Assembly: GCA_030680415.1 (NCBI GenBank)
Contig: JAUXVE010000090.1
Location: 1 to 64,000, forward strand
Length of the DNA: 64,000 nt
Origin: Rubrivivax sp.
GTDB taxonomy: Bacteria; Pseudomonadota; Gammaproteobacteria; Burkholderiales; Burkholderiaceae_C
Direction: 5' to 3'
In this document: in pieces, positions 8,890 through 26,671 of the stretch
Position numbering within the stretch: position 1 is the first letter of the stretch
Layout of the letters: every line of letters starts with the position of its first letter
The notes under the pieces: generated by a model
Told to the model about the DNA's origin: nothing
The model's database searches: none
What the model saw: the letters and a program-made list of their open reading frames with translations, nothing else
Translations under genes and position numbers: made by a program

Positions 8890-8918
8890 TTGTGCGCTGC
8901 GAATACTTTTGCTATTCT
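8890..8918 (+). promoter_or_regulatory. sigma-70-like promoter of the BREX operon
   Basis: TTGTGC (8890-8895), a 17-bp spacer, then TATTCT (8913-8918), 30 bp before the ATG of the small regulator. This is the best promoter at the left end of the island and could drive the co-oriented genes to 32799. Confidence 0.55.
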
Positions 8919-8947
8919 GCGCATCACCCCTTGAACATAGAGCGACC

Positions 8948-9169
8948 ATGATCCGCTGCCACCTCTCGTCCTTGATGGGCCGCGACAAGCTCAACATCAC
9001 GAACGTTGCGCGAGCCACCGGCCTGAACCGCAGCACCATCACCGCGCTGTACCGCGAGACCGCCACCCGCGTTGAGCTACCCGCGATCGAGCAGCTCTGC
9101 ACGTTGTTCAAGTGCTCGGTCGGCGAGCTGCTGGAGCATGTGCCCGACACCACCAAGGGCACCGCATGA
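8948..9169 (+). CDS. small XRE/Cro-type helix-turn-helix regulator
   Basis: A 73-residue protein that is almost entirely one HTH_XRE domain (LNITNVARATGLNRSTITALYRE, then LPAIEQLCTLFKCSVGELLEH), like YozG-type regulators. The frame is open further upstream, but the ATG at 8948 sits correctly behind the promoter. Its stop overlaps the pglW start (ATGA), so regulator and defence operon are coupled. It probably autoregulates BREX expression. It is not the WYL-domain BrxR found with many BREX loci. Confidence 0.82.
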   Translation: MIRCHLSSLMGRDKLNITNVARATGLNRSTITALYRETATRVELPAIEQLCTLFKCSVGELLEHVPDTTKGTA

Positions 9170-12100: not shown

Positions 12101-13440
12101 AGGTGATGAGCGCGCAAGAGGCGGCCATGGCGCTGCTCTCGCTGCGCGGCTGCGCCGAACAAGACGACAGCGAGCGCGTGCGCCAGGCCAGCGCCGTGTT
12201 GCGCGCTGCGGTCGAGGCTGAATCGCACCTCGACCAACCGCGCTTCGAGGCCTTCGACCACGCGCCGGTGACGCTCATCGCCACCGCCGCCGCCTGGGCC
12301 GACTACGCACGACAGCTCGGCACCGCAGCCGACACCAGCGCGATGGCCGACCCCTTGCTGCCGCCGACTCGTGTGCTGGAGGCGCTGGAAGGCGTGACAC
12401 CTCCCGCCGCAGCGGGCGCGGTCATCGGCACTGGCGCTTCTGCCACCACGCCTGTCTCGTCCACCCGCTTGCTGCGGCTGGCCGCATCGGCGTCTCGAAA
12501 AGCGGCACTGTCCAGCCGGCAAGAAATCTATCCCCGCGGCATGCCCGCGCTGCAGGCGCTGAAGCAGTCGATCAACGCGCTCGTCGGCGCCACGCTTAGC
12601 CCTTCCGCACTGCAGACCCGCGTGCGAGGCCGCTACCCCGAGGCCACGCCACTGCCTGGCCGCCCCGAGTTGGACCGTCTGCTTGAAGAGGCCGGCGCTC
12701 CGCTGCATTGGGACCCCACCGCCGCTGACGGCGCGGGTGCCTACAGAGCTGCCACGCTGGGCAGCGCGGCGACCGCCGGCACCACGACACAGTTCTCGCG
12801 CCAGACCACGCTGCAAAGCACCGGCGCCGGGCCCGACGGCACGGTGGCCGATGCCGGTGCGGCGGAGGAGCGCTTGCAACGCAGCCTGCGGCAGGGAGGC
12901 TTGCTCGTAATCACTGTCGACCCGCGTATTGCGCGTCGCGCCGAAACAGAGCTGCTGCACCGCTTCCGTCAACCAACGCAAGCCATGCAAGGTCTGCAAC
13001 GGCTGAACTTCGACGCACTGCTGCTGAACGCACTGCGTGAGCAGGCAAGCACTGTGCCCGTGGGCTGGAATGTGGTGCTGCGAGCCGATGCAGCGGACCG
13101 AGGCGGCCGTGACTGGACCCACCTGATGCGGCTGGTGCAGCGCACCCTGCCGGCACTGCGCGCCGCGCTGCTGCAAAGCCCGGCGCCCCTGCTGTTGGTC
13201 AACGCAGGCCTGTTGGCGCGCTATGACCTCATGTCGCTGATCACCGAGATCGAGGCCGCTGCCGGCCGCCCTGCGCAGACGCCGAGTGTGTGGCTGCTGC
13301 TGCCCACGGCGCATCAGGGTCTGCCGGTCATCGACGGCGTGGCGGTGCCGCTGGTCAACAACATCAACAACACCCGCGCATTGGCACTGCCTCAGGCCTG
13401 GGTCGAGAACCAGCACCGCGCGGGCCTCATTCATGCCTAA
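9166..13440 (+). CDS. pglW: PglW-type BREX serine/threonine kinase: NERD domain, pseudokinase, active kinase
   Basis: A 1424-residue protein. It begins with a NERD (nuclease-related) domain (EVDALVLSPAGLFLVEIKSRPG near residues 52-75). A first kinase-like domain (about 205-480) has a degenerate catalytic loop (LHHRALGPQSI instead of HRDxKxxN). The second kinase domain (about 525-780) is intact: GKGSSSDALLV loop, ILKVA lysine, HRDIKPEN loop near residue 638, and DFS where DFG is usual. An HhH-like segment (ERMGIHNARALLAV) and a long C-terminal region follow. PglW is a hallmark of type 2 BREX and phosphorylates partners in the Pgl system. The start at 9166 is chosen for its ATGA overlap with the regulator. 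pglX follows after 62 bp. Confidence 0.92.
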   Translation: MTLGQARWHVIAESNFAWEREALDWLRGHLPDRDPWHVWTNFEFIDDEGKVSEVDALVLSPAGLFLVEIKSRPGILTGDAHSWTWNTDGRTNTYDNPLILANRKAKRLASLLKRQPAIAKAKIRLPFVEPAIFLSSSSLACRLEGIAKSATFQHGRPGSADDDGIVGALANGIANRGASTVDAQQARAIARGLNEAGIRPSNKHRQVGDYKLGKLLAEGEGFQDWEAHHVTIETVHRRVRIYTVATTSTPEARATRVRQARREFEVLEGIDHPGILKVKDYKETELGPALVFDHDPKAVRLDHLLRDHGTRLTVTQRLQLVRDIAETLKYAHSKRLHHRALGPQSILVQDIESNHPQLRLMNWQTASRNVGDSASPDTVHRTTGTRHVEDYVEDPGLVYLAPETTRADPAHGPSLDVFSLGCIAYHVFSGQPPAESVLDLTEKLRIGQGLSLSDVMDGCGARQQELVHVATCPEVLARYDTIRGFLDELDGVEDELTTPDPEATVDPSVAGIGDRLEGAFTVVKRMGKGSSSDALLVREDGSEEELILKVALDVAHNDRLVAEGDVLAKLHHHNIVAHRRTLSVAGRTALLLKTAGDKTLAETLKDVREQGRLSLDMLQRFGEELIEAVNHLEAEGVAHRDIKPENIGITKNRTGKLQLVLFDFSLCRTPTDNITAGTHPYLDPFLSLRKPPRWDLYAERFAAAVTLYEMAVGQPPVWGDGQTSPAMLDVEAIIESDVFDPVTREGFTAFFRKALKRDYSERHDNAEDMLRAWRAIFAARQTVHPSEGGGESGLAASLRNAAMTATPLTTMAELGYSLEAQDVLERMGIHNARALLAVDRITFRYLRGVGDKIRKEIRLTAKELARLRPDLTQGRSTAHDVDEDAGGAVSVNELAAQLLPRRPAGDDRPEEAALAHYLGLDDAVKAGTWPTVGEATQASQVDRSVLTTALIKARERWLRNTAFTELRQQLETLLRSQGQVMSAQEAAMALLSLRGCAEQDDSERVRQASAVLRAAVEAESHLDQPRFEAFDHAPVTLIATAAAWADYARQLGTAADTSAMADPLLPPTRVLEALEGVTPPAAAGAVIGTGASATTPVSSTRLLRLAASASRKAALSSRQEIYPRGMPALQALKQSINALVGATLSPSALQTRVRGRYPEATPLPGRPELDRLLEEAGAPLHWDPTAADGAGAYRAATLGSAATAGTTTQFSRQTTLQSTGAGPDGTVADAGAAEERLQRSLRQGGLLVITVDPRIARRAETELLHRFRQPTQAMQGLQRLNFDALLLNALREQASTVPVGWNVVLRADAADRGGRDWTHLMRLVQRTLPALRAALLQSPAPLLLVNAGLLARYDLMSLITEIEAAAGRPAQTPSVWLLLPTAHQGLPVIDGVAVPLVNNINNTRALALPQAWVENQHRAGLIHA

Positions 13441-13502: not shown

Positions 13503-16500
13503 GTGATCAACGCCCCCCAACTACTGGCTGACCTCACCCGCCGGCTCGAGCGCCTGGAAGACGACCTGCGCCAGCGCCACTTGACAGCCCCCGAGCAGCC
13601 CGACCTGGACGCCAGCCTGCGGGCCGAATGGCAGGCCGCCCGCGACGCTGACCGCTGCGCCGAAACTTATCTGACCTGGGCCGAACAGGTCATCACCCAG
13701 GCCGGCGTGCACTGGCTGCTGAGTTGCGTGTTCCTGCGCTTCATCGAAGACAACCAACTGGTCGACCGCCCCTGGCTGGGTGGCACGCCCGAGTCTGGCC
13801 CCCACGGCAACCGTTTGGCCTTGGCCCGCGACCGGCACGAGGCCTACTTCCAGGCCCATCCGCTGCAAAGCGACCGCGACTATCTGCTGGCCGCCTTCCG
13901 CGAAGCCGGTGCCCTGCCCGGTCTGCGCACCTTCTTCGACGAAGCCCACAACCCGGTCTTCCGCCTCGGCATCAGCGGTGACGCCGCGATGGCGCTGCGC
14001 CAGTTCTGGCAGCAGATCGACTTGAGCACCGGCGCCCTGACGCACGACTTCACCGACCCGACCTGGAACACCCGCTTCCTGGGCGACCTGTATCAAGACC
14101 TGAGCGAAGCCACACGCAAGCGCTACGCCCTGCTGCAGACACCCGAGTTCGTCGAAGAGTTCATCCTCGACCGCACGCTCACGCCCGCCATCCATTCGTT
14201 CGGTTTCCGCGAGGTGCGGATGATCGACCCCACCTGCGGCTCGGGCCATTTTCTGCTGGGTGGCTTTCATCGGCTGGTGGCCGAGTGGCAACGGCATGAA
14301 CCCCGCCGCAACCCGGTGGATATTGCGCAGAAGGCGCTGGACGCGGTGGCCGGCGTGGACCTGAACCCTTTCGCGATTGCCATCTCGCGCTTCCGGCTGT
14401 TCGTGGCGGCCTTGCAGGTGTCGGGCACGCGGCGGTTGTCTGAGGCGCACAACTTCCGCGTCTCGGTGGCCATCGGCGACAGCCTGCTGCATGGCACACG
14501 CTTTGGTTTGACCGAAACCCAGTCGCTGTTCGACACCGCAGCAAGCCACGCCGACACCGGCCTGGCCCACGCCTACGCCAGCGAAGACCTGGCCGAGGTG
14601 CAGCGCATCCTGGGCCGCCAATACCATGCTGTGGTCGGCAACCCGCCCTACATCGTGGTGAAGGACGCGGCGCTTAACGCGGCCTATCGGTTGAAGTACG
14701 CCAGCTGCCACATGAAGTATTCGCTGGGCGCCCCGTTCACCGAACGCTTCTTCGAGTTGGCAGTGCAGCCTGCCGATGGCCGCAGCGCCGGCTACGTGGG
14801 CCTGATCACGGCCAACTCGTTCATGAAGCGCGAGTTCGGCAGCAAGCTGATCGAGCAGGTCCTTCCCCGGCTGGATCTCACGCATGTGGTGGACACCTCG
14901 GGCGCCTACATCCCGGGCCACGGCACGCCCACGGTCATCTTGTTCGGCCGGCATCGGGCGCCAATGGATGTCGGTGTTCGCACGGTCATGGGCATCAAGG
15001 GCGAACCCAGCACGCCGGACGACCCGGCGCGGGGGCTGGTGTGGAGCGCGATCGTCGGCCAGATCGACCAGCCGGGCAGCGAGAGCGATTTCGTCAGCGT
15101 GGCCGATACACCGAGGGCGACGTTCGGCAAGCATCCGTGGAGTATTGGGGGTGGCGGCGCGGCAGACCTGAAGGAGCAGATTGAAGCCGACCAACCTGCG
15201 CTTTCGTCGTTCACGGATGAGTTGGGTATCGCATCGGTGAACGGAGAGGACGATGTGTTCGTCCTGGTCAATGGCGCGAATGCACGCCGACGAGGCATTG
15301 AATTCACAAGGGCGCTGGTGACGGGTGACTTGGTGCGTGACTGGACAGCCGACACCACACCTGCGGTCTGGCTGTACGACGACTCTCTTGCGCTCGTGCC
15401 TATCGCCGACTTGCCTCGCACCGGCCGCTATTTCTGGTCTGCTCGCACGTTCTTGTCAAAGCGAAAGCGTTTCGGTACGCCCATGCTGGAACGCGGCCTG
15501 ACCTGGTACGAATATCAGGAACTCTATGTGAGCAAGCTGAGGACGCCGCTGACGATCACATTCGCCGAAATCGCCACCCACAACCACTTCGTCCTCGACC
15601 GCGGCGGCAAGGTCTTCAAGCAGACCGCACCCGTGATCAAGCTACCCGCGGGCAGTAGCGAAGACAAACACCTGGGGCTGCTCGGGCTGCTGAACTCGTC
15701 GACGGCGTGCTTCTGGCTGAAGCAGGTTTGCTTTCCGAAGGGTGGCGACCACGTCGGCAACGAGGGCGCACGGGTGCGCAAGACCTTGTGGGACGAGCGA
15801 TTTGCCTTTAACGCCACCAATGTGGCCGAGTTCCCACTGTGCACCGGCCGCCCCCTGGACATCGCCACCCGCCTTGACGTTCAGGCACGCCAGTTGAGCG
15901 ATCTGCAGCCTGCAGCCCTGCTGACCCGGGACACGCCGCCGACGCGCGCCAGCCTCAATGCCGCACGAGACCAGGCAGCCGAGCTGCAGCGCCTGATGAT
16001 CGCCCGCCAGGAAGATCTGGACTGGCGTTGTTATCGGCTCTACCAGCTGATGCCTGCAGGGGTGAGCGCGGCCGAGGTTGAATTCCGTGCACCGGTCGAA
16101 GTGGCGCTGGGCGAACGCGCTTTCGAGATCGTCCTGGCTCGCCGCATCGCCGCCGGCTCCGAGCAGACCACCTGGTTCGAGCGCCATGGCTCCAAGCCCA
16201 TCACCGACATCCCGGCGCATTGGCCCGAGGCTTACCGCCAGGTGGTCGCCCGCCGCATCGAGCTGATCGAGCGCGACAAGACCATCGGCCTCATCGAGCG
16301 GCCCGAGTTCAAACGCCGCTGGAATTCCCCGAAGTGGGAAGACCTGGAACAAGCCGCACTGCGCGACTGGTTGTTGGCCCGTCTCGAAGCCCCGGCGCTC
16401 TGGCCGGCGTCAGCCGACCAGCCGCCCCAAATCACGTCTGCCGCCCGACTGGCCGACGCCGTGCAGCGCGATGCCGACTTCATGCAGGTGGCTGCGCTCT

Positions 16501-17279
16501 ACGCAGGCCATGCCGACTTCGGCCTGCACCAGCTTGTGGCCGAGTTGGTGGCTTCCGAGTCCGTTCCCTTGCTGCCTGTGCTGCGCTACACCGACACCGG
16601 CCTGCGAAAGCGTGAGCAGTGGGAAACAACCTGGGCCATGCAGCGGGCTGAGGACCGGATCGATGCGTCGGTGGCAGCTGTTGCGCCGGGCTGGCGAGAA
16701 GAGCTGCAGGCCCGTGCCGCACAACGGTTTGGCAGCGCCACACACGCCGACGCACCGGCCTGGGTGGAACAACAGTTGGCCCAGGAGATCGCCCGCCAGC
16801 AGGCCGAGCGCAAGCAGAACGAAGTCGGCAAGATTCCGGTGCCACCCAAGTACCAGAGCAAGGACTTCCTGAAGACCGACTTCTGGCGCCTGCGCGGCGG
16901 CCTGGACGTGCCGAAGGAACGCTGGGTCAGCTACCCCGGCTGCGAACGCGGCGCCGATGGCAGCTTGGCCCTGGCCTGGGCCGGCTGGAACCATCTGCAG
17001 CAGGCCACTGCCCTGGCCGGCTACTACGTGGAGATGAAGGACACCGAAGGCTGGGAGCCGGCGCGCCTGCAACCCTTGCTGGCCGGCCTGTTGGAACTGG
17101 TGCCTTGGCTGGAGCAGTGGCACAACGAGTTGGACCCGGTCTTCGGCGAGCGCATGGGCACGTACTACCGGGGCTTCGTGTCCGAGGAGGCGCGCGCGCT
17201 GGGATTCACGCTCGACGACCTGCGGGCTTGGAAGCCTGCGGTGACAACAACAAAGCGTGGAAGGAGGAAAGCAGCATGA
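13503..17279 (+). CDS. pglX: PglX BREX-2 adenine-specific DNA methyltransferase
   Basis: A 1258-residue class I methyltransferase from a GTG start with AGGGAC about 10 bases upstream. The SAM-binding motif DPTCGSGHFLLGG is near residue 242 and the catalytic NPPY (VVGNPPYIVV) near residue 380, typical of N6-adenine methyltransferases fused to a large target-recognition region. In BREX it methylates one strand of a non-palindromic site to mark self DNA and is also needed for exclusion. The stop overlaps the next gene by ATGA, tying the accessory cassette to the core operon. Confidence 0.93.
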   Translation: MINAPQLLADLTRRLERLEDDLRQRHLTAPEQPDLDASLRAEWQAARDADRCAETYLTWAEQVITQAGVHWLLSCVFLRFIEDNQLVDRPWLGGTPESGPHGNRLALARDRHEAYFQAHPLQSDRDYLLAAFREAGALPGLRTFFDEAHNPVFRLGISGDAAMALRQFWQQIDLSTGALTHDFTDPTWNTRFLGDLYQDLSEATRKRYALLQTPEFVEEFILDRTLTPAIHSFGFREVRMIDPTCGSGHFLLGGFHRLVAEWQRHEPRRNPVDIAQKALDAVAGVDLNPFAIAISRFRLFVAALQVSGTRRLSEAHNFRVSVAIGDSLLHGTRFGLTETQSLFDTAASHADTGLAHAYASEDLAEVQRILGRQYHAVVGNPPYIVVKDAALNAAYRLKYASCHMKYSLGAPFTERFFELAVQPADGRSAGYVGLITANSFMKREFGSKLIEQVLPRLDLTHVVDTSGAYIPGHGTPTVILFGRHRAPMDVGVRTVMGIKGEPSTPDDPARGLVWSAIVGQIDQPGSESDFVSVADTPRATFGKHPWSIGGGGAADLKEQIEADQPALSSFTDELGIASVNGEDDVFVLVNGANARRRGIEFTRALVTGDLVRDWTADTTPAVWLYDDSLALVPIADLPRTGRYFWSARTFLSKRKRFGTPMLERGLTWYEYQELYVSKLRTPLTITFAEIATHNHFVLDRGGKVFKQTAPVIKLPAGSSEDKHLGLLGLLNSSTACFWLKQVCFPKGGDHVGNEGARVRKTLWDERFAFNATNVAEFPLCTGRPLDIATRLDVQARQLSDLQPAALLTRDTPPTRASLNAARDQAAELQRLMIARQEDLDWRCYRLYQLMPAGVSAAEVEFRAPVEVALGERAFEIVLARRIAAGSEQTTWFERHGSKPITDIPAHWPEAYRQVVARRIELIERDKTIGLIERPEFKRRWNSPKWEDLEQAALRDWLLARLEAPALWPASADQPPQITSAARLADAVQRDADFMQVAALYAGHADFGLHQLVAELVASESVPLLPVLRYTDTGLRKREQWETTWAMQRAEDRIDASVAAVAPGWREELQARAAQRFGSATHADAPAWVEQQLAQEIARQQAERKQNEVGKIPVPPKYQSKDFLKTDFWRLRGGLDVPKERWVSYPGCERGADGSLALAWAGWNHLQQATALAGYYVEMKDTEGWEPARLQPLLAGLLELVPWLEQWHNELDPVFGERMGTYYRGFVSEEARALGFTLDDLRAWKPAVTTTKRGRRKAA

Positions 17280-17740
17280 GCGCAGCAGGGCCGGTTCTGG
17301 TCAGCTACTTCGAGTCGGCGCGCCGGCACTTTCATGATGCGGGCGTATTGCTAGGTGGCAGCCGGCCGGCGAATGCGGGCCAGTTGTTTGGGATCGCCGC
17401 AGAGTGCGGTATCAAGGCCATCCTGGTAGCCAGCCAAGTACCCGTCGACACAGATGGGTCGCTTGACCGTCCGCCTGGAGTAAAGGGGAAGGGATTCAAG
17501 GAGCACTGGCCCCAGCTGGGACAGGTGCTGAGAGATCTCGCGGCGGCCATCCCTGACGGGCGGACTGCAACGACCTATCTGTCCCTGATCCCTAACCTGA
17601 CGCACTTTTCTGACTGGCTGATTGAACATAGATACTGGCGTGATGGGGCCTTGCCACTGACCTCGGTTGCGCGCTGGCAGGCAGCAGCGACAGAGGTCAT
17701 GGCCGCGTTGGACCAAGCGAAAGAAGATGGGAGGCTGTGA
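17276..17740 (+). CDS. HEPN-like protein, first gene of the cassette inserted after pglX
   Basis: A 154-residue protein. Its N-terminal helices (YFESARRHFHDAG...PANAGQLFGIAAECGIKAIL) match the HEPN-type pattern in which a helix of the form A.xLxGxAxECxxKAL follows a helix of a small-molecule or RNA-binding fold. I cannot point to a clear RxxxxH ribonuclease motif, so RNase activity is open. The ATG at 17276 overlaps the pglX stop, and its own stop is immersed in the next start. HEPN proteins in defence loci often act as RNases or as partners of nucleotidyl-modifying enzymes, and a Fic protein lies three genes on. Codon use and GC from here to about 20.5 kb look lower than in pglW/pglX. Function not established. 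Confidence 0.6.
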   Translation: MSAAGPVLVSYFESARRHFHDAGVLLGGSRPANAGQLFGIAAECGIKAILVASQVPVDTDGSLDRPPGVKGKGFKEHWPQLGQVLRDLAAAIPDGRTATTYLSLIPNLTHFSDWLIEHRYWRDGALPLTSVARWQAAATEVMAALDQAKEDGRL

Positions 17741-19080
17741 TGACGACAATTCGATTTCATGACGCGTTGAGGCTAGCCGCGCAGGCCTTGCAGGGTCTGC
17801 AATTGCCTGCTGAGCCTGGCATACGCTTGGTGCGCGACTTGTATGGAAGATTGCGCTTCGCCGTCAATTGCGTCGCCGCAGACTTTCCCGTACCGGCAAG
17901 TGAAGCACTGCAAGCCGCGCAGGCCGCACTGGGTCCTTATGCCACCAGCACCGAGCTGCTGTTCCGCGACAGCTTCTCCAATCCCGACAAGTTCTTCGAA
18001 CAGCCGAATTGGCTTCGCACCACAGTGGCAATGGGCAGCGATGAAGATGGTGAGCCACTGCCGGCAGCGGAGGTCTTGCTGTTGGATCGCATGGTCACTG
18101 GTCAGGACTGGCTGCAACCCGCGCACGCCACTGGCAAGCATCCGCATCGACTTGTGTTCTATGGCCTCAAGGGGGGTGTCGGCAGATCGACCGCGCTGTG
18201 CATGGTGGCTTGGGGCCTGGCCCGCCAAGGCAAGCGGATCTTGTTGGTGGACTTCGATTTGGAATCGCCGGGTCTGTCTGGCTTGATCCTCCCTGCAGAG
18301 CGGGCGGCGGAGTTCGGCGTGACAGACTGGCTGGTTGAGGATGGCGTAGGCCAGAGCGAAACCGTGCTGGAGAGCATGGTGTCAGCAAGCCCCTTGGGTG
18401 AGACCACGCAAGGAGCTGTGCGTGTGGCGGCTGCGATGGGGCAGAAGGAAGGCGACTACCTGGCCAAGCTGGCTCGTGCGTATGCCGACATTCCGTCCGA
18501 GCACGGCCCTCAACGATTGGGTGAGCGGCTGCGTCGAATGGTACTGGCGCTGGAGCATCGCGAACAGCCCGACGTCGTCTTGATCGACAGCCGCGCGGGT
18601 CTACATGATCTTGCCGCAGCAGCCATTACCGGGTTGGCAGATACCGCACTGCTTTTCGCCACCGACGGCGAGCAGACATGGCAAGGCTACCGGCAATTGT
18701 TCACACACTGGCAACGGCGACCGACGGTCGTGCGCGAAGTCCGTGAGCGCCTGGCCATTGTGCGAGCGCTGACGCCGAAGAGCGACCGTGAGACCGGCGT
18801 GAAGCGATTTCAGCGTAAAGCCTATGAACTGTTTGCAGAGACGCTGTACGACAGCATTCCGCAAGGCACGGAAGGAGCGGAGACCGACTACTTCCACCCC
18901 ATCGAGGCGGATCAGGCAGCGCCGCACTTTCCGATCCTGGTGGACTGGGACGAACGTTTCCAGGAGTTCAACCCAAGCCTTAGAGCGGAGCAAGGTGGCG
19001 TAACCGATGCACAAGTAGACGCGACATTTGGGGCGTTGATTCAGTGGGTGACGCAGCGCATCCAGGACGAGCAGCTATGA
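17740..19080 (+). CDS. ParA/MinD-like ATPase with variant KGGVGR Walker A
   Basis: A 446-residue protein. About 140 N-terminal residues of unknown fold precede a SIMIBI ATPase domain: YGLKGGVGRSTALCM (residues 144-151 are KGGVGRST), then RILLVDFDLESPGLS and VVLIDSRAGLHD. In canonical ParA/MinD the motif is KGGxGKST; here the second lysine is arginine while the signature first lysine is kept. I recall that a KGGVGR-variant ATPase family is recognised, so this may be characteristic and not a lesion. The ATG at 17740 is preferred over GTG 17737 because it sits 5 bp from GGGAGG. It overlaps both neighbours, so expression is coupled. Role in defence unknown. Confidence 0.75.
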   Translation: MTTIRFHDALRLAAQALQGLQLPAEPGIRLVRDLYGRLRFAVNCVAADFPVPASEALQAAQAALGPYATSTELLFRDSFSNPDKFFEQPNWLRTTVAMGSDEDGEPLPAAEVLLLDRMVTGQDWLQPAHATGKHPHRLVFYGLKGGVGRSTALCMVAWGLARQGKRILLVDFDLESPGLSGLILPAERAAEFGVTDWLVEDGVGQSETVLESMVSASPLGETTQGAVRVAAAMGQKEGDYLAKLARAYADIPSEHGPQRLGERLRRMVLALEHREQPDVVLIDSRAGLHDLAAAAITGLADTALLFATDGEQTWQGYRQLFTHWQRRPTVVREVRERLAIVRALTPKSDRETGVKRFQRKAYELFAETLYDSIPQGTEGAETDYFHPIEADQAAPHFPILVDWDERFQEFNPSLRAEQGGVTDAQVDATFGALIQWVTQRIQDEQL

Positions 19081-20534
19081 GTAGCGCAGAACAAGCCCTT
19101 CGCGGCGGTATCAAAGAGGCGGCGGCCGTGCTGGCGCAGGATCAGGCTACGTCGACTCGACCAGAAGCGTTTACCTACGTGCCGCCAACCCACGCAAAGG
19201 CGCTTGACCTAGACGCCACACTGGTTGAAGGCATTCGCGGAGCCGGCAAGTCGTTCTGGTTCTCCTTGCTCGCGTCACCGAGGCACCTTTCGTTCGTTCG
19301 AAGCAGCTTTCCTGAAGCGCGATTGCCGAAGGGCGTGAAGGTCTTACAAGGGTTCGGGATGGGCCTGCCCATCGCGCAAGCTCCAGACGCGGACACGCTG
19401 GCCAGTCTGTTGGACAAAAAGTTCCGCGAGCGTGCAATCTGGCGGGCTGTGGTCGCGCATCTCGTAGGCATTGGTGGCGAGTTCGCCGCCCTAAGGAAGT
19501 GGTCGGATCGAGTGCGCTGGGTTCAAGAGAACCCGGAGGACTTTGCGGGCGCACTCGAAGCAGCAGATCAACGCCTTGGGACAAATGGCGAATCCGTACT
19601 GATCCTCTTCGATGCACTGGACCGCATGGCCGACGACTGGCAGCACATCAACAAGCTCGCCAAAGGCCTGCTGCAGGTGGCTCTGGACATGCGCTCCATG
19701 CGCTTCATCCGGTGCAAGGTTTTTGCTCGCCCAGACTTGCTGCAAGACGCGGAAGTCACGAGCTTCGCGGACTACTCGAAGCTGTTGGCCACCAAGGCGT
19801 CTCTGGTTTGGCAGCGTGCCGACCTATACGCGTTGCTGTACCAGTGCCTAGGCAACGCTTCAGTAAGCCGGAAGCACTTCGCTGCGTGGGCTGCAGAGGG
19901 GAAGGTGAGCACAACATCCGGCGCGACAGCTAACTGGGCCGTGCCGTCATCACTGCGCTACGACGAGGATCGGCAAGAGGCGTTGTTCGAGCGAATCGCC
20001 GGCAAAGCGATGGGCAGCAGCATCAAGCGGGGCAAGCCCTACACGTGGCTCGTCAATCATTTGCAGGACGGTCTGAATCAGGTCAGCCCGCGAAGCTTCT
20101 TGGCAGCGCTGGGCAAGGCTGCAATTGAGACGGCCGACGACTTCGAACTGCCGCTGGACTATCGAGGGATTCAACGCGGGGTTCAAGAGGCTTCCCAGAT
20201 TCGCGTACAAGAAATTACCGAGGACTACCCCTGGGTCAGGCAGGTGATGGAGCCTCTGCGAGGCAATCTGACCGTCCCTTGTGCAGCCAGTGAGATCGAG
20301 TCTATCTGGAAGAAGCAGCAAACCCTTGTTCAGTTGGAGTCACTGCTGCGACAAGGCAACGCGGTCGTGAAGCTGCCTCCGCAGAACCGCGATCAAGGGG
20401 CATCGGGCATCCTGCTGGATCTGGAGGGGTTGGGCATGGTCCAGCGCTTGGATAGCAAACGCATCCAGATGCCGGATGTCTTCCGCGTCGCGTTTGGCTT
20501 CGGTCGCAGAGGTGGCGTTAAACCACTTCAATGA
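19077..20534 (+). CDS. P-loop NTPase of unknown function, partner of the KGGVGR ATPase
   Basis: A 485-residue protein with a clear Walker A (GIRGAGKS, residues 52-59) and Walker B (VLILFDALDR, Asp near residue 179), so it should bind and hydrolyse a nucleotide. The C-terminal third contains a likely winged-helix segment (LLRQGNAVVKLPPQ, LLDLEGLGMVQRLDSKRIQMPDVFRVAFG). No nuclease or transmembrane motif is evident. The ATG overlaps the previous stop and its own stop overlaps the Fic start. The close pairing with the KGGVGR ATPase and HEPN-like gene suggests a three-protein machine; this is inference from gene order. Confidence 0.65.
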   Translation: MSSAEQALRGGIKEAAAVLAQDQATSTRPEAFTYVPPTHAKALDLDATLVEGIRGAGKSFWFSLLASPRHLSFVRSSFPEARLPKGVKVLQGFGMGLPIAQAPDADTLASLLDKKFRERAIWRAVVAHLVGIGGEFAALRKWSDRVRWVQENPEDFAGALEAADQRLGTNGESVLILFDALDRMADDWQHINKLAKGLLQVALDMRSMRFIRCKVFARPDLLQDAEVTSFADYSKLLATKASLVWQRADLYALLYQCLGNASVSRKHFAAWAAEGKVSTTSGATANWAVPSSLRYDEDRQEALFERIAGKAMGSSIKRGKPYTWLVNHLQDGLNQVSPRSFLAALGKAAIETADDFELPLDYRGIQRGVQEASQIRVQEITEDYPWVRQVMEPLRGNLTVPCAASEIESIWKKQQTLVQLESLLRQGNAVVKLPPQNRDQGASGILLDLEGLGMVQRLDSKRIQMPDVFRVAFGFGRRGGVKPLQ

Positions 20535-21622
20535 GGATGTTCGACCGAAACGCCCCCTTCAACGATCTGCCGGCCCTCCCGCCGGTAGCCGAGGTGGAGA
20601 CCGCCGCCGTCCTCAAGAAGGCGATCACGGCCAGCCGCGCGTTGGCGGAGTTGAAGGGCATGGCCGAGCGCATGCCCAACCAGGCCATGCTGATCGACAG
20701 CCTGGTGCTGCAGGAAGCGCGCGCGTCGTCAGAGATCGAAAATATCCTGACGACGAACGACGAGTTGTTCAAGGCGGCCTCGGATGAGGCCTTGCCGGCC
20801 AGCGCCGAAGCCAAGGAAGTGCTGCGCTACCGACAGGCCTTGAACCACGGCTTCCGGCAGATCAAGGAACGGCCGCTGGCCACCGGCCTGTTCATCGAGG
20901 TTGCGCAGCTCATCAAGGAGACAGACTTCAGCGTGCGTCGTACTCCCGGCACGCGCATCGCCAACGCCCGAGGCGAGACGATCTATACGCCGCCCGAAGG
21001 CGAAGCCGTCATCCGCGACAAGCTGCGTGACCTTGAGAATTTCATGCACGCCGACGACGGCCTGGACGTGCTGGTGAAGATGGCGCTGGTGCACTACCAG
21101 TTCGAGGCCATCCACCCCTTCCCTGATGGCAACGGGCGCACCGGGCGCATCCTGAACATCTTGTACCTGGTGGACCGGGGACTGTTGAACCTGCCCGTGC
21201 TCTACCTGTCGCGCTACATCATCGACCACAAGCCGGCCTACTACGAAGGGCTGCGGCGGGTGACCGAAGAAGGCGCCTGGGGCGACTGGGTGCTGTACAT
21301 GCTGGACGCTGTCGAGCAGACCTCGCTGCGCACGCGCCAGCAGATCACCGACATCCTGGCGCTGATGGAAACGGTGCGCGAGCGTGTGCAGCGCGAGGCG
21401 CCGGGCCTTCATGCGACAGGGCGCAGCAAGGACTTGATCGAACAAATCTTCCGGCAGCCCTACTGCAAGATCCAGTTCCTCGAACGCGCGGGCATGGGCA
21501 CACGGCAGACCTGCTCGAAATACCTGCGCGAGCTGGAGCGCCTGGGCGTGCTGCACGGCCAGAAGATCGGCCGCGAGGTGTATTTCATCAACCAGGCGCT
21601 GTTCGATCTGTTGACGCGATGA
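20531..21622 (+). CDS. Fic-family protein (probable AMP-transferase) with N-terminal autoinhibitory motif
   Basis: A 363-residue Fic protein. The catalytic motif HPFPDGNGRTGR is complete at residues 195-206. SSEIEN at residues 66-71 matches the inhibitory [S/T]xxxE[G/N] helix, placing it in the class II, self-inhibited group. A winged-helix-like C-terminus (RQTCSKYLRELERLGVL) completes the usual architecture of Fic_N-Fic-wHTH proteins such as Shewanella SoFic. Such enzymes transfer AMP to hydroxyl side chains of target proteins. No separate FicA antitoxin is needed or seen. The ATG overlaps the stop of the P-loop gene, making it the fourth coupled gene after pglX. Confidence 0.88.
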   Translation: MRMFDRNAPFNDLPALPPVAEVETAAVLKKAITASRALAELKGMAERMPNQAMLIDSLVLQEARASSEIENILTTNDELFKAASDEALPASAEAKEVLRYRQALNHGFRQIKERPLATGLFIEVAQLIKETDFSVRRTPGTRIANARGETIYTPPEGEAVIRDKLRDLENFMHADDGLDVLVKMALVHYQFEAIHPFPDGNGRTGRILNILYLVDRGLLNLPVLYLSRYIIDHKPAYYEGLRRVTEEGAWGDWVLYMLDAVEQTSLRTRQQITDILALMETVRERVQREAPGLHATGRSKDLIEQIFRQPYCKIQFLERAGMGTRQTCSKYLRELERLGVLHGQKIGREVYFINQALFDLLTR

Positions 21623-21773: not shown

Positions 21774-21790
21774 TTTATCACGGTGATAAA
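21774..21790 (+). promoter_or_regulatory. perfect palindrome over the toxin start codon, candidate MqsA operator
   Basis: TTTATCACGGTGATAAA: 8-bp arms around one base. It covers the GTG start at 21783. Antitoxins of this class bind palindromes at their own promoter, so this is a plausible autoregulatory site that could also affect translation. Confidence 0.5.
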
Positions 21791-22226
21791 CTTATCTCTC
21801 AATCTATGGCGCGTCGATCCGTCAACGCTGCCTGCCTTCGATCCAGCTGGTAAGCAAGGCAGGCCGATTCGAGGCGGCCCTCTGGTGGACCGTATCAAGC
21901 TGCAAGCCTTGTTGCGCGCGGCTAAGGTGGACCTGGACAACCTGGTCGTTGGAACCGACAACTGTGATCGGGATTTGAGAAACAACCGATGGACCAACGA
22001 ACACGTTTTGCTGATGCTCAACTGCCTGCTGGCAGTCGACTATCGCAAGTCCGAGTGGTGCCAGGTGCGGGGCGGCCAGAACCTACCCAGCGATGTGTAC
22101 GTGTTGCCCTTCGACAATGTGCGGCAGCGGCGCCGCCCAGGCGGTCTGGAGGTCTATCTGAAGTTTTCCCTGCGGACAGACGGCATGCTGACCATCGTGC
22201 TGGTCTCCTGCCATTCGTCTCGCTGA
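21783..22226 (+). CDS. probable MqsR-like mRNA interferase toxin
   Basis: A 147-residue basic protein encoded directly upstream of an MqsA-like antitoxin, the toxin-first order of E. coli mqsRA. The region LLMLNCLLAVDYRKSEW...DVYVLPFDN...LEVYLKFSLRTDGMLTIVLVSC resembles the MqsR core (DVYRP...GQVYLKITV...LIVSFK), with an N-terminal extension of about 50 residues. MqsR cleaves mRNA, preferentially at GC[U/A]. A stop codon at 21771 restricts the start, leaving GTG 21783 inside the palindrome. Similarity is by eye and modest, so the family name is tentative; a toxin role is supported mainly by its partner. Confidence 0.55.
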   Translation: MINLSLNLWRVDPSTLPAFDPAGKQGRPIRGGPLVDRIKLQALLRAAKVDLDNLVVGTDNCDRDLRNNRWTNEHVLLMLNCLLAVDYRKSEWCQVRGGQNLPSDVYVLPFDNVRQRRRPGGLEVYLKFSLRTDGMLTIVLVSCHSSR

Positions 22227-22272: not shown

Positions 22273-22881
22273 ATGACAACAATTGCCACCACACACCTCG
22301 ATGCCCTACCGCTGTGCCCGGTCTGCCGCCGTGGCCGACTGCACCCGACCACACGCACGGAGCAGTTCAACCCGCGAGGCAAGAAGGTGGAGGTCGAGTT
22401 GCTGACCTCGCGTTGCGATGCCTGCGCAGAAAACACCACCCGCGCTGCCCAGCAAGATGAAAACCTGGTGCGCCTGGCTGCGCGCAAGCACCACTATGGC
22501 CCGCTGCTGCTGGGCGAAGACATCCTGGACCTGCGCAAGCGCTATGGCCTGAAGCAGCAAGCCGCCGCGAAGATCTTTGGCAAAGGCAAGATCGCGTTCT
22601 CGCGTTACGAGAACGAGGCCAGCTACCCGGACGACAGCACGACGTTGCTGCTGCGCCTGGCCATTGACAAGCCCGATGTCATCAAAGCGCTGGCCGACTG
22701 GGCCGGGGTCGAATTGCCGTTGTGGGCAGAGCGCTGCGAGGACGATCAACGGCTGAGGGCCCGCCAGCCGACAAAGACGGGCGCGACGCAAGTTCGGAAC
22801 CTGAAGCCTTCGACCACAAGTGCACCGCGCAAGGCACCGGCCGTTGGCAAGTCGAAGGCAGCGCCTTCCGTCCGAGTTTGA
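22273..22881 (+). CDS. MqsA-like antitoxin: zinc ribbon plus XRE DNA-binding domain
   Basis: A 202-residue protein. The N-terminal zinc ribbon has two CxxC pairs (C15/C18 in CPVC, C48/C51 in CDAC), followed by a helical XRE-type domain (LRKRYGLKQQAAAKIFG...FSRYENEASYPDDSTTLLLRLA), the same two-part layout as MqsA, which neutralises MqsR and represses the operon. It is longer than E. coli MqsA (131 residues) because of a charged, disordered C-terminal tail from about residue 155. AGAGGT precedes the ATG, and the gap to the toxin gene is 46 bp. Confidence 0.8.
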   Translation: MTTIATTHLDALPLCPVCRRGRLHPTTRTEQFNPRGKKVEVELLTSRCDACAENTTRAAQQDENLVRLAARKHHYGPLLLGEDILDLRKRYGLKQQAAAKIFGKGKIAFSRYENEASYPDDSTTLLLRLAIDKPDVIKALADWAGVELPLWAERCEDDQRLRARQPTKTGATQVRNLKPSTTSAPRKAPAVGKSKAAPSVRV

Positions 22882-22908
22882 TGGGCCAGACGCAGACCAA
22901 ATCTGATT

Positions 22909-22929
22909 GTTTGAACAACATGTCCGCCC
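22909..22929 (+). repeat. right copy of 21-nt direct repeat flanking the toxin-antitoxin pair
   Basis: The second copy of the 21697-21717 sequence (two mismatches), ending 31 bp before the pglY start codon, where an operator for a secondary pglY promoter could lie. Confidence 0.55.
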
Positions 22930-22960
22930 CAAGAGCCGGACTGAAGGGAAGGATCCGACC

Positions 22961-25900
22961 GTGCCACTGCTGAGAGACCTGATCCACATCCCGGAGCGGG
23001 TGCACCAAGGCGACTTCGTGCTCAAGCTGTCGGAAGGCGTCACCCACGCCGACCAGACTCTGCGCGACTACGTCGTCACGCCGCAGCTCGTGGATGCCTT
23101 CAGCAATGCGCTGGGCTTCATCCAGCAGGCGGTGCAGACGGGTGGCAGCAAGGCGGCCTACCTGCACGGCAGTTTCGGCTCAGGCAAGAGCCACTTCATG
23201 GCCGTGCTGAACCTGCTGCTGGCCGGCAACACGCAGGCGCGCGCGACGCCCGAGCTGGCCGACGTGGTGGCGCGTAACGGGTGGACGACCGGCCGCAAGT
23301 TCCTGCTGGTGCCGTACCACATGGTCGGCGCGCGCGACATGGAAAGCGCGGTGCTGGGCCAATACGCCGAGTTCGTGCGCAAGAAGCACCCCGAGGCGCC
23401 GGTGCCGGGCTTCTACCTCGCCGAAGGCATGTTCAAAGACGCCCGCGAGCTTCGGCTGCAAATGGGGGACGAGTCGTTCTTCGCCAAACTGAACACGGGC
23501 GCAAAACGCGATGGCGGTGGTGGCAGCGGAGGAAGCAGCGGCTGGGGCTCTTTCGACAGCGGCTGGGACGCCACGAGCTTCGAAGCGGCCATGCTCGAAG
23601 CGCCCAACGGCGAAGAGCGCTCGCGCCTGGTGGGCGACCTGATCAGCCAGTTCTTCTCGGCCTACCGCACGCTGGCAGGCAGCGGCGAGTCCTACGTGTC
23701 GCTCGACGACGGCCTGAGCATCATGAGCCGGCATGCGCGCGACCTCGGCTATGACGCGGTCATCCTGTTCCTCGATGAACTGGTGCTGTGGCTGGCCAGC
23801 CATGCGGCCGATGTCAATTTCGTCAGCCGCGAAGGCACCAAGCTGGTCAAGCTGGTGGAGGCCACCAACGCCGACCGGCCGATTCCGCTGGTCAGCTTCG
23901 TCGCGCGGCAGCGCGACCTGCGCGACCTGGTGGGTGAGAACCTGGCCGGTGTGGTGCAGGTGCAGTTCAGCGATGTGCTCAAGCATTGGGAAGCGCGCTT
24001 CCACCGCATCACGCTGGAAGACCGCAACCTGCCCGCCATCGCCGAGAAGCGTGTGCTGCGGCCGGTGGACGAGGCTGCGCGCCAGACGATGCAGGCCGCG
24101 TTCGACGATATCTTGAAGATGCGCAAGGACGTGCTCGACACCTTGCTCACGACGACGGCCGACCGGGACATGTTCCGGAAGGTCTATCCCTTCAGCCCGG
24201 CGCTGGTGCAGACGCTGATTGCCGTGTCGGCCGCGCTGCAGCGCGAGCGCACCGCGCTCAAGCTGATGCTGCAGTTGCTGGTGGACCGGCGTGCCGACCT
24301 GGAGCTGGGCCAGTTGATCCCGGTGGGCGACCTGTACGACGCGATCGCTGAAGGCGATGAGCCCTTCTCCGAGGGCATGCGCCTTCACTTCGAGAATGCG
24401 AAGCGCCTGTACACGCAGCGGCTGCTGCCGATGCTGGAACGCCAGCATGGGGTGACGTGGGAGGCGATCAAGCTGGGTCAGGCGGACGCCACCGCCACCA
24501 AGAATCTGCGCAACGATGCACGGCTGTTGAAGACCTTGCTGCTAGGTGCGTTGGTGCCCGAGGTCGAGTCGCTCAAGGGGCTGACCGCGCAGCGGTTGGC
24601 CGCCCTCAACCACGGCACCTTCCGTTCACCGATCCCCGGCCGCGAAGCACAAGACGTGCTGCGCAAGTGCCGCGACTGGGCGAGCGAGATCGGCGAGATC
24701 AAGATCACCGAGGATCAGAACCCTGTTGTCTCGATCCAGGTGACGGGCGTCGACATCGAACCCATCCTGCGTGCGGCCGAGGCCAACGACAACGCCGGCA
24801 ACCGCCGCAAACGGATTCGCGAAGCCCTGTTCGGCGAGCTGAACATTCCCGACAGCGGCGGCCTGTTCACCACGTACGAATTCAGCTGGCGCGGCACCAA
24901 GCGCGAAGTCGAGCTGTTGTACGAAAACGTGCGGGAGATGACCGACGACCGGCTGCGCGGGCGCAGCGGTGCGTGGACCGTGGTGCTGGACTTCCCGTTC
25001 GACGATGCGAACTTCGGCCCAGCCGACGACCTGGCACACCTGGCCGCGTACCGGGGCGGCGACACGCGCACGCTAGTGTGGCTGCCTTCGTTCCTGAGCG
25101 ACAAGGCCTTGGCGGACCTGGGGCGCCTTGTGGTGCTGGACTACATCCTCCAGGGCGACCGCTTCGACAACTATGCAGGGCACCTGTCGTTCGTGGACCG
25201 CGTGCAGGCCAAGGCGCTGGCCAAGAACCAGTTGGACCAACTGCGCATCAGGCTGCGTTCGCAGCTTGAAGTGGCTTATGGCATCAGCACCGAGCCGCGC
25301 GATGCGGTGACCAGCCCGCTGTCGGCTGACCAGCAGTTCAAGTCGCTGGACCCGACGTTGTCACCACGGCCACCGGTGGGGGCCGACTTCCGTGCCGCGT
25401 TCGAGAGCCTGCTCGGCCAGCTCTTCGCGCACCAGTACCCCGCGCACCCCGAGTTCGACACCGAGATCAAGGCCAGTGTCATCAAGAAGGTGTGGCCCGA
25501 GGTGCAAAAGGCCATCGAGGCGCCAGGGCAACGTGGCCTGGTGCAAGACGCATCCACGCGTAAGCTGGTGCGGTCTGTGGTGAACCCCTGCAAGCTCGGG
25601 CAGATGGGCGAGACCCATCTGCTGATCGAGCCGCACTGGCAGGCGCGCTTTGCGCAGAGCCACGCGCGCGACGGCGGCGGCCCGATCACGGTGGCCAAGC
25701 TGAGGCTGTGGATCGACACGCCAGCCCCGATGGGGCTGCCGCTGGAACTGCAGAACCTGATCATCCTGACGTTTGCGGCGACGACGAACCGCCGCTTCGT
25801 GATGCGCGGCGGGCCGTTCGAGCCCAGCATCGACAGCCTGCCTGACGAACTGGAATTGCGCGAGCAGTCGCTGCCGGATGCTGGCCACTGGCAGACCGCA

Positions 25901-26671
25901 GTGCAACGGGCGTCGGGGCTGTTTGGCCTGACACCGGCACAGGTGCTCAACGCGGCCAACGTCGGACGTTTGGTGGACGACGTACGGCAGGCCGCCACTC
26001 AGAAGCGTGACGCCACCGCGCGGCTGGTATCCCAAGTGCGAGATCGATCGACACGCTATGCGCCCGGCGTGGTCGGTGCGCGGCAGCAGACGGCGGAGTC
26101 TGCTCAGGCATTGCTCGCCTCGCTGGTGCAGGCGGCCGAAGGCGACATGGTCGCCACGCTGGCATCGGCCACCTTGCAGACTTCCGATGCCGCCGTTGGC
26201 CGCACGTTCGGCCAGGCACTGGCCTGCGCCGATGCATTGGCGAACACCCGTTGGGAGATGTTCGACGCGATGCGCGACTTGCAGGACCACCGGCGGGACG
26301 CAGCCGCGTCCGTGCTGAGCCGCTTGAGCGAAGTGCTGACGAGCGATGAGCACGTGATGCCGCTGAAGTCGCGCCTGGAGGAGCTGGAACGTGATGCGAT
26401 GCGGCTGCTGACGGCTGCAGCGCCACCACATGCGTCCGCATCTGCACCCACACCGGCCGGTATGCCACCGGCTACTGCCCCCGCACCGCTGCCCTTCCCG
26501 CCGGCACCGGCGGCGATGGGGCCCGAGATCGTGGAAGAGAAGCAGCAGCTTCACCTGAGCGGCGAGGCGGCGGCTGCGGCCTTGGATGACCTGAAGGCCC
26601 GAATGGCACGCGACCGTGACCTTGAGCTGACGCTGAGCTGGCGCTTGCAGCGCAAGGGCACGCGGCTATGA
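22961..26671 (+). CDS. pglY: PglY BREX-2 ATPase
   Basis: A 1236-residue P-loop ATPase (DUF6079/BrxC-like). The Walker A GSFGSGKSHF is at residues 70-79 and Walker B AVILFLDELVLW near residue 272. A glycine-rich loop (GGGGSGGSSGWGSF) lies near residue 190, and a Pro/Ala linker near 1160 separates the C-terminal tail. PglY is the large ATPase of type 2 BREX. The frame is open to 22907, but the GTG at 22961 has GGGAAGGA seven bases upstream and gives the family N-terminus VPLLRDLIHIPERVHQGDFVL. It follows the toxin-antitoxin genes after 79 bp. Confidence 0.92.
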   Translation: MPLLRDLIHIPERVHQGDFVLKLSEGVTHADQTLRDYVVTPQLVDAFSNALGFIQQAVQTGGSKAAYLHGSFGSGKSHFMAVLNLLLAGNTQARATPELADVVARNGWTTGRKFLLVPYHMVGARDMESAVLGQYAEFVRKKHPEAPVPGFYLAEGMFKDARELRLQMGDESFFAKLNTGAKRDGGGGSGGSSGWGSFDSGWDATSFEAAMLEAPNGEERSRLVGDLISQFFSAYRTLAGSGESYVSLDDGLSIMSRHARDLGYDAVILFLDELVLWLASHAADVNFVSREGTKLVKLVEATNADRPIPLVSFVARQRDLRDLVGENLAGVVQVQFSDVLKHWEARFHRITLEDRNLPAIAEKRVLRPVDEAARQTMQAAFDDILKMRKDVLDTLLTTTADRDMFRKVYPFSPALVQTLIAVSAALQRERTALKLMLQLLVDRRADLELGQLIPVGDLYDAIAEGDEPFSEGMRLHFENAKRLYTQRLLPMLERQHGVTWEAIKLGQADATATKNLRNDARLLKTLLLGALVPEVESLKGLTAQRLAALNHGTFRSPIPGREAQDVLRKCRDWASEIGEIKITEDQNPVVSIQVTGVDIEPILRAAEANDNAGNRRKRIREALFGELNIPDSGGLFTTYEFSWRGTKREVELLYENVREMTDDRLRGRSGAWTVVLDFPFDDANFGPADDLAHLAAYRGGDTRTLVWLPSFLSDKALADLGRLVVLDYILQGDRFDNYAGHLSFVDRVQAKALAKNQLDQLRIRLRSQLEVAYGISTEPRDAVTSPLSADQQFKSLDPTLSPRPPVGADFRAAFESLLGQLFAHQYPAHPEFDTEIKASVIKKVWPEVQKAIEAPGQRGLVQDASTRKLVRSVVNPCKLGQMGETHLLIEPHWQARFAQSHARDGGGPITVAKLRLWIDTPAPMGLPLELQNLIILTFAATTNRRFVMRGGPFEPSIDSLPDELELREQSLPDAGHWQTAVQRASGLFGLTPAQVLNAANVGRLVDDVRQAATQKRDATARLVSQVRDRSTRYAPGVVGARQQTAESAQALLASLVQAAEGDMVATLASATLQTSDAAVGRTFGQALACADALANTRWEMFDAMRDLQDHRRDAAASVLSRLSEVLTSDEHVMPLKSRLEELERDAMRLLTAAAPPHASASAPTPAGMPPATAPAPLPFPPAPAAMGPEIVEEKQQLHLSGEAAAAALDDLKARMARDRDLELTLSWRLQRKGTRL

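Follow-up and report, generated by a model that had tools for sequence, protein, structure and literature searches.

Several kinds of additional genes have been described in or near bacteriophage exclusion (BREX) operons: HEPN genes were reported in Pgl operons (PMC3710099) and auxiliary effectors in BREX (PMC12839542). Pairs of a HEPN gene and a ParA/Soj gene have been proposed as toxin-antitoxin systems (Anantharaman et al. 2013, PMC3710099), and putative candidates called PDCs, mostly still without experimental validation, have been found by 'guilt-by-embedding' (PMC12988326). Here we describe one such candidate, PDC-M28, inside a type 2 BREX operon of Rubrivivax sp. (assembly GCA_030680415.1, contig JAUXVE010000090.1, positions 1 to 64,000 of the forward strand; this whole stretch of 64,000 nucleotides is the window below). 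Its three genes, M28A, M28B and M28C, lie between pglX and pglY and are followed by a gene for a SoFic-type protein adenylyltransferase; PADLOC-DB 2.0.0 (2023) already holds models for all four. The PDC names are reportedly traced by citing papers to the guilt-by-embedding preprint of Payne (2024; doi 10.1101/2024.01.29.577857), from which, to judge by its name, PDC-M28 itself would stem. In the part of the journal literature consulted, bioRxiv preprints lying outside that search, we found no paper naming PDC-M28 or KGGVGR and no published description of the gene set.

We consider it fairly probable that the PDC-M28 trio is an independent, toxin-antitoxin-like abortive module carried as nested cargo by BREX, beside a separate SoFic gene and an MqsA-family gene with its neighbouring open reading frame (ORF). 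The arrangement is not a new BREX subtype, it is an already catalogued candidate sitting in a recurrent BREX cargo slot. A preliminary description had seen four genes behind pglX as one translationally coupled cassette, 17276..21622, and knew of no described BREX subtype with such a set. The four genes and their coupling stand: successive stop/start overlaps from pglX through M28A, M28B and M28C to Fic are 4, 1, 4 and 4 nt (ATGA or TGATG), and the host operon is complete and in order, with pglW, pglX, pglY/brxC, pglZ, brxD and brxHI all found by PADLOC models (Table 1). The cassette does not mark the end of the insert, since beyond a gap of ~160 bp after the Fic gene come a 147-aa ORF and then the MqsA gene, before pglY. 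Nor does the claim of an undescribed set hold for its parts, because PADLOC-DB 2.0.0 has models for PDC-M28 and SoFic alike. The 147-aa ORF belongs to no family in Pfam, NCBIfam or PADLOC, and its best match among PDB sequences has E 0.49; it is a possible toxin partner of the MqsA-like gene, while MqsR as its identity found no support in these four databases.

The trio is a real unit. In the window the adjacent genes match the M28A, M28B and M28C models over nearly their full length. For counting we relied on M28C (0/14 controls matched), because PDC-M28B at E 1e-3 matches every one of the 61 genomes and likewise every control. At 49 of the 58 M28C loci read, the window included, M28A, M28B and M28C follow one another in order on one strand (same strand, upstream of M28C, B within 1.5 kb and A within 3.5 kb), nine loci have neither A nor B, and none has just one. 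Order on a single strand at 49/58 loci is not to be put down to chance, and this all-or-none pattern makes the three genes a unit, in support of the preliminary description, which had proposed tabulating their co-occurrence. The 58 loci are a non-random set, found in part by similarity to the window M28C and including near-copies (L085/L086, L112/L113), and the profiles were built from the same set. M28C was present in 20/398 sampled genomes of the window's phylum and 10/399 of its order (own genome counted in both), in 3/201 genomes of the phylum of a Chloroflexus locus (centre genome counted) and in 21/72,556 plasmid records, all of the latter opened except H7, H8 and H20 (3/21); Actinomycetota were sampled via plasmids. 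Phage records gave no tblastn match to M28C. E. coli as a source was rejected, megablast with the window cassette and with an Enterobacter trio returning no match.

We note some peculiar loci in this set: (i) The M28C of Streptomyces and Kitasatospora plasmids (L112-L116, L092) is divergent and has neither A nor B beside it; in the M28C tree the Streptomyces copies L092 and L112-L115 form one branch beside the trio-bearing L090, and L116 is outside the tree. (ii) On plasmids (L085, L086, L089, L093) a gene for a tyrosine recombinase or an integrase directly precedes or adjoins a trio outside BREX, and in L085 a TIR-domain gene is found just downstream. (iii) In two genomes (L076, L077) the trio is followed by a gene for a ~900-aa phosphoenolpyruvate (PEP)-utilising enzyme (PPDK_N, PEP-utilizers).

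Linkage of the trio to BREX, and so to defence genes, was expected by the preliminary description and is significant on plasmids: 3/10 BrxD records also carry M28C (p 2.5e-9, hypergeometric), in each case within a type 2 operon; the ten are not all type 2, L111 being annotated as BREX type 6, and three of them (H28, H30, H31) were left unopened. Among the 399 genomes of the order sample BrxD occurs in two, the window's and G583, both with the trio inside the operon. Altogether the trio lies inside type 2 BREX at 6/58 M28C loci, five times between pglX and pglY and once between pglW and pglX. At the other 52, some of which are cut by contig ends, the surroundings of M28C yielded no type 2 BREX gene. 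A genome-level co-occurrence in the phylum sample (M28C in 4/6 other BrxD genomes, p 5.4e-5) was set aside, because the genes are on different contigs of draft assemblies and all four genomes come from two families (f61, f65).

Insertion at the same place has happened repeatedly. On a tree of concatenated M28B and M28C with 43 rows (six of the 49 trios, L082, L094, L117, L140, L142 and L143, being too broken, fused or very divergent to enter) the embedded copies require at least four label changes, and a single clade for them is rejected (p-AU 2.9e-111; the contexts were known when the group was picked, and the branch of L090 is long). After L033, the nearest kin of the window M28C are L034 (81% identical), L035 (76%) and L036 (72%), near which no BREX gene was detected, L035 and L036 being cut soon after M28C; embedded copies are more distant (58% for L083, 53% for L084 and L137). 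Across M28B and M28C the identities to the window are 81% for L034, 52-58% for L083, L084 and L137, and less for L090. G583 and the window nevertheless have similar BREX backbones (pglY 79%, brxD 89% identical). Trio and backbone thus appear from these identities to have moved separately, with which the lower GC content of the trio (0.607 vs 0.66 for the BREX genes) agrees. At third codon positions the GC content is 0.68-0.69 for M28B and M28C vs 0.88 for SoFic. In L033, M28, SoFic and the visible start of pglY are 93-96% identical to the window, and the pglX part (residues 505-1258) only 62%, which looks like an exchange of the recognition part.

The pglX-pglY junction receives other cargo as well. 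BrxD led to 12 type 2 BREX loci in which this junction is visible, window counted, and eight of them carry cargo: M28 in four, a HEPN and MNT nucleotidyltransferase pair in two, and HEC-02A/B and a Juk-like two-gene module in one each (Table 1). No cargo was recognised in L090, L103, L104 and L109; L106 and L107 (junction not visible) and L111 were left out of these counts. A further slot, that of L033, was reached via M28C and is outside the 12; it holds M28, SoFic, MqsA and PDC-M25A/B.

The preliminary description had named the parts of the trio from motifs, and its assignments were upheld. Window M28A, called HEPN-like, has no match in Pfam; two homologues (L094, L117) pass the cut-off of Pfam PF05168 (HEPN) and eight others scanned do not. 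The 11 best Foldseek matches of its model are eight chains titled HEPN, 1ufb, which we take to be HEPN too, and two chains of 2q00. The last is listed as HEPN in PMC3710099. The HEPN-type matches, with probabilities from 1.00 to 0.93 and a best E of 0.033, point to a HEPN fold. M28B scores 199.5 bits against NCBIfam NF047398 (KGGVGR-motif AAA ATPases; cut-off 90), and KGGxGR is kept in all 36 M28B homologues listed. M28C is a P-loop NTPase with the motifs GIRGAGKS and FDALDR; against the Sll1717 P-loop ATPases (NF047389) it scores 59, below the cut-off of 75. The nearest structures to its model are BrxC-containing entries, Cdc6/ORC entries and STAND ATPases, at low TM-scores, and we predict it to be a STAND/ORC-Cdc6-like ATPase.

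Fusions suggest how the parts are connected. In three loci (L081, L117, L143) a single open frame covers both M28B and M28C, and in five M28C makes up the N-terminus of a longer protein of 1328-1790 aa; in all three long versions scanned (L071, L073 and L075, not L072 and L074) the remainder is a calcineurin-like phosphoesterase (Metallophos) followed by a NACHT NTPase. NACHT proteins are immunity-type NTPases. Both the M28B-M28C frames and the M28C fusions suggest that it is M28C that couples the parts of the trio.

We infer a defence activity for the trio, and an abortive back-up role such as had been suggested for the whole cassette, by a mechanism that may run as follows. M28C would be a STAND/ORC-like sensor ATPase, M28B a ParA-like regulator in physical contact with it, and between them the two would keep M28A, the HEPN protein, inactive. 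Once a phage infects or BREX fails, the ATPases would switch and free M28A, which would stop growth through action on, or binding of, RNA or nucleotides. The trio, co-translated with PglX, would then be an abortive second layer, and SoFic would act apart from it by AMPylating a target.

Several observations weigh against this reading. The Foldseek E-values of M28A are weak (0.033-0.45) and its model has a mean pLDDT (predicted local confidence) of 63, its profile showed no significant similarity when compared with that of HEPN proteins from HEPN-MNT pairs, and the Rx4-6H motif is not conserved, the best column pair being common to 12/34 sequences and the pattern present anywhere in 21/34 (34 sequences, without L062, L080 and L082, aligned before L132-L143 joined). 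M28A is thus not supported as a HEPN RNase by motif, and RNase action is not to be assumed. The nine best structural matches of M28C have TM-scores of 0.27-0.40, and comparing its profile with BrxD and PglY gave nothing significant. M28C occurs without A and B in L062 (a fragment), L066, L074, L092 and L112-L116. Two embedded operons may be partly broken, since pglW in L083 and pglX in L084 are each annotated as two genes. Outside plasmids the loci are few: without the window the order sample leaves 1/1 other BrxD genome (p 0.023), and of the 21 further M28C loci read in the phylum sample none is inside BREX. Finally, we know of no experiment demonstrating phage protection by PDC-M28.

Because M28A does not conserve Rx4-6H, the rival reading in which it is non-catalytic has to be taken seriously, if as an unlikely one: M28A would be a HEPN adaptor or nucleotide-binding subunit, and an M28B-M28C signalling core would drive an attached effector, the phosphoesterase-NACHT elsewhere and SoFic or BREX here. 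Residues R17, E43-x3-K47, H77 and R119-Y120 of M28A are kept in 34/34 sequences despite the unconserved motif, and the Metallophos and NACHT fusions of M28C fit an attached effector. So does SoFic where it starts on the M28C stop, as in the window, or directly follows M28C, as in L033. In the relative G017, 31 residues left over from the C-terminus of M28C stand before a SoFic gene 94-95% identical to that of the window, and the stretch read there has no BREX gene; this detail favours an older link between SoFic and the trio, and 0/18 other SoFic loci (with ~1-1.5 kb flanks) have such a remnant. Against an attached effector, SoFic adjoins the trio in 2/58 M28C loci only (window and L033), and beside other trios no recurrent further effector was recognised, the flanks not having been systematically scanned.

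The Fic gene itself was correctly read as that of an autoinhibited enzyme with His195, so far as motifs indicate. Catalytic Fic motifs follow HPFxxGNGR and inhibitory ones [ST]xxxE[GN]; the protein has HPFPDGNGR, including His195, and the inhibitory-type SSEIEN at 66. It scores 96.6, 55.8 and 80.5 bits for Pfam Fic_N, Fic and SoFic-like_C, above the curated cut-offs, and matches solved SoFic chains at E 4e-99 to 7e-97. Its 465 bits against the NCBIfam SoFic equivalog are below the cut-off of 550, and it is therefore a SoFic-type homologue and no proven equivalog. SoFic was found in 20/120 relatives, own genome included, which together with its 2/58 adjacency shows that it is no fixed part of the module. 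The single four-gene module was accordingly abandoned: of the sensor-effector module once proposed, two distinct NTPases and a HEPN protein remain, and Fic drops out as the fourth linked gene.

In our estimation it is quite unlikely that PDC-M28 acts as a plug-in guard. As such, the STAND-ParA-HEPN trio would be a sensor that has docked repeatedly, in translational coupling, behind pglX of type 2 BREX to watch the methyltransferase or the BREX complex, and that is wired by fusion to the phosphoesterase-NACHT effector in other lineages and to SoFic here. Were it true, pglX-pglY would serve BREX generally as a docking site for interchangeable back-up modules.

We give still less weight to M28 proteins as dedicated subunits that define a new subtype of type 2 BREX, sensing or regulating PglX/PglY and required for BREX, a strong form of what had first been proposed. 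In 4/5 pglX-pglY loci (window, L033, L083 and L137, not L084) the pglX stop and the M28A start overlap as ATGA, though M28B/C of L083 and L137 are just 52-58% identical to the window; the plasmid co-occurrence also speaks for such subunits, and three of the four top Foldseek matches of the M28C model are chains from BrxC-containing entries. Against them stand the 52/58 M28C loci without a detected type 2 BREX gene, the polyphyly of the embedded copies, seven type 2 BREX loci without M28 (L102-L105, L108-L110) and the insertion of L090 at a different junction. Just as improbable is that the trio serves addiction or partition, with a ParA-like ATPase and a HEPN toxin that stabilise plasmids and islands, and only hitch-hikes in BREX: M28B is ParA/MinD-like and trios occur on plasmids beside the recombinase and integrase genes noted above, but the significant plasmid link to a defence operon, the M28C fusion with NACHT and the lack of any ParB annotated directly beside the trio in opened plasmid stretches with the full trio argue otherwise.

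On the nested-cargo reading, an anonymous PADLOC candidate becomes a testable three-protein unit for which fusions suggest contacts, and one type 2 BREX junction stands out as a spot where further defence modules have landed repeatedly. There one can ask in concrete terms whether a nested system takes over when its host system fails. A small Cro/C1-type helix-turn-helix (HTH) gene overlaps the pglW start of the window and is likely a BREX regulator; an HTH regulator gene occupies the equivalent position in the Polaromonas operon L108.

Table 1. Positions of the genes of the window and of related insertions and cargo in other loci
Feature	Locus	Position	Strand	Basis or remark
Small Cro/C1-type HTH gene	window	8909-9169		overlaps pglW start
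pglW	window	9112..13440	+	PADLOC PDLC02512, 1651 bits
pglX methyltransferase	window	13503..17279	+	PADLOC PDLC02529, 1697 bits; stop overlaps M28A start
M28A (PDC-M28A), HEPN-like, 154 aa	window	17276..17740	+	PADLOC PDLC04558, E 1.6e-35; start in ATGA ending pglX at 17279
M28B (PDC-M28B), KGGVGR-motif ParA/MinD-like ATPase, 446 aa	window	17740..19080	+	PADLOC PDLC04559, E 3.6e-148; TGATG start
M28C (PDC-M28C), P-loop ATPase, predicted STAND/ORC-Cdc6-like, 485 aa	window	19077..20534	+	PADLOC PDLC04561, E 2.1e-171; ATGA start
SoFic-type protein adenylyltransferase, 363 aa	window	20531..21622	+	PADLOC SoFic, E 4.2e-117; ATGA start
ORF, 147 aa, directly before mqsA-like gene	window	21783..22226	+	position only
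MqsA-family antitoxin/regulator	window	22273..22881	+	Pfam PF15731, 65.6 bits; TIGR03830, 93.7 bits
pglY/brxC ATPase	window	22907..26671	+	PADLOC PDLC02488, 1605 bits, residues 20-1249; right edge of cargo slot; longest ORF, true start possibly further in
pglZ	window	26745..29480	+	PADLOC PDLC02565, E 2.2e-288
brxD	window	29477..30787	+	PADLOC PDLC02494, E 1e-204
brxHI helicase	window	30784..32799	+	PADLOC PDLC02503, E 3e-271
M28 between pglX and pglY	window; L083 (Sphaerotilus plasmid); L084 (Thiodictyon plasmid); L137 (G583)			counted in slot survey
M28 between pglX and pglY	L033 (Burkholderiales metagenome-assembled genome)			reached via M28C
M28 between pglW and pglX	L090 (Streptomyces plasmid)			
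HEPN + MNT nucleotidyltransferase pair in slot	L102	6198-6880		
HEPN + MNT nucleotidyltransferase pair in slot	L105	8272-9029		
HEC-02A/B in slot	L108 (Polaromonas plasmid)			
Juk-like two-gene module in slot	L110 (Azospirillum plasmid)	9901-11486		JukA E 6e-18, JukB just 9e-6; record unannotated
pglX part, residues 505-1258	L033	1-2277		62% identical to window
PEP-utilising enzyme after trio	L076	8636-11413		PPDK_N, PEP-utilizers
PEP-utilising enzyme after trio	L077	6567-9269	-	PPDK_N, PEP-utilizers

Compared with known systems, the three genes of the window show no difference from PDC-M28, and what sets them apart is their place in type 2 BREX, with SoFic and MqsA behind them. The Fic protein resembles SoFic in its Fic_N, Fic and SoFic-like C domains, HPFPDGNGR and SSEIEN, and differs in falling below the equivalog cut-off and in that its gene starts on the M28C stop. 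STAND ATPases (PABY2304, CED-4) and RADAR RdrA share 10-12% identity with M28C, and a common fold is no proof of common function. The HEPN-MNT pairs of L102 and L105 occupy the same BREX interval and likewise combine a HEPN protein with a nucleotide-handling partner, but that partner is an MNT nucleotidyltransferase and comparing the HEPN sequences with M28A gave no significant match. Nearest among printed precedents seen is the HEPN and ParA/Soj pair, which like the trio joins a HEPN gene to a ParA/Soj-like ATPase gene; it uses MAE_18760 HEPNs that keep Rx4-6H (PMC3710099), whereas M28A does not keep it and the trio has a third gene, for another ATPase.

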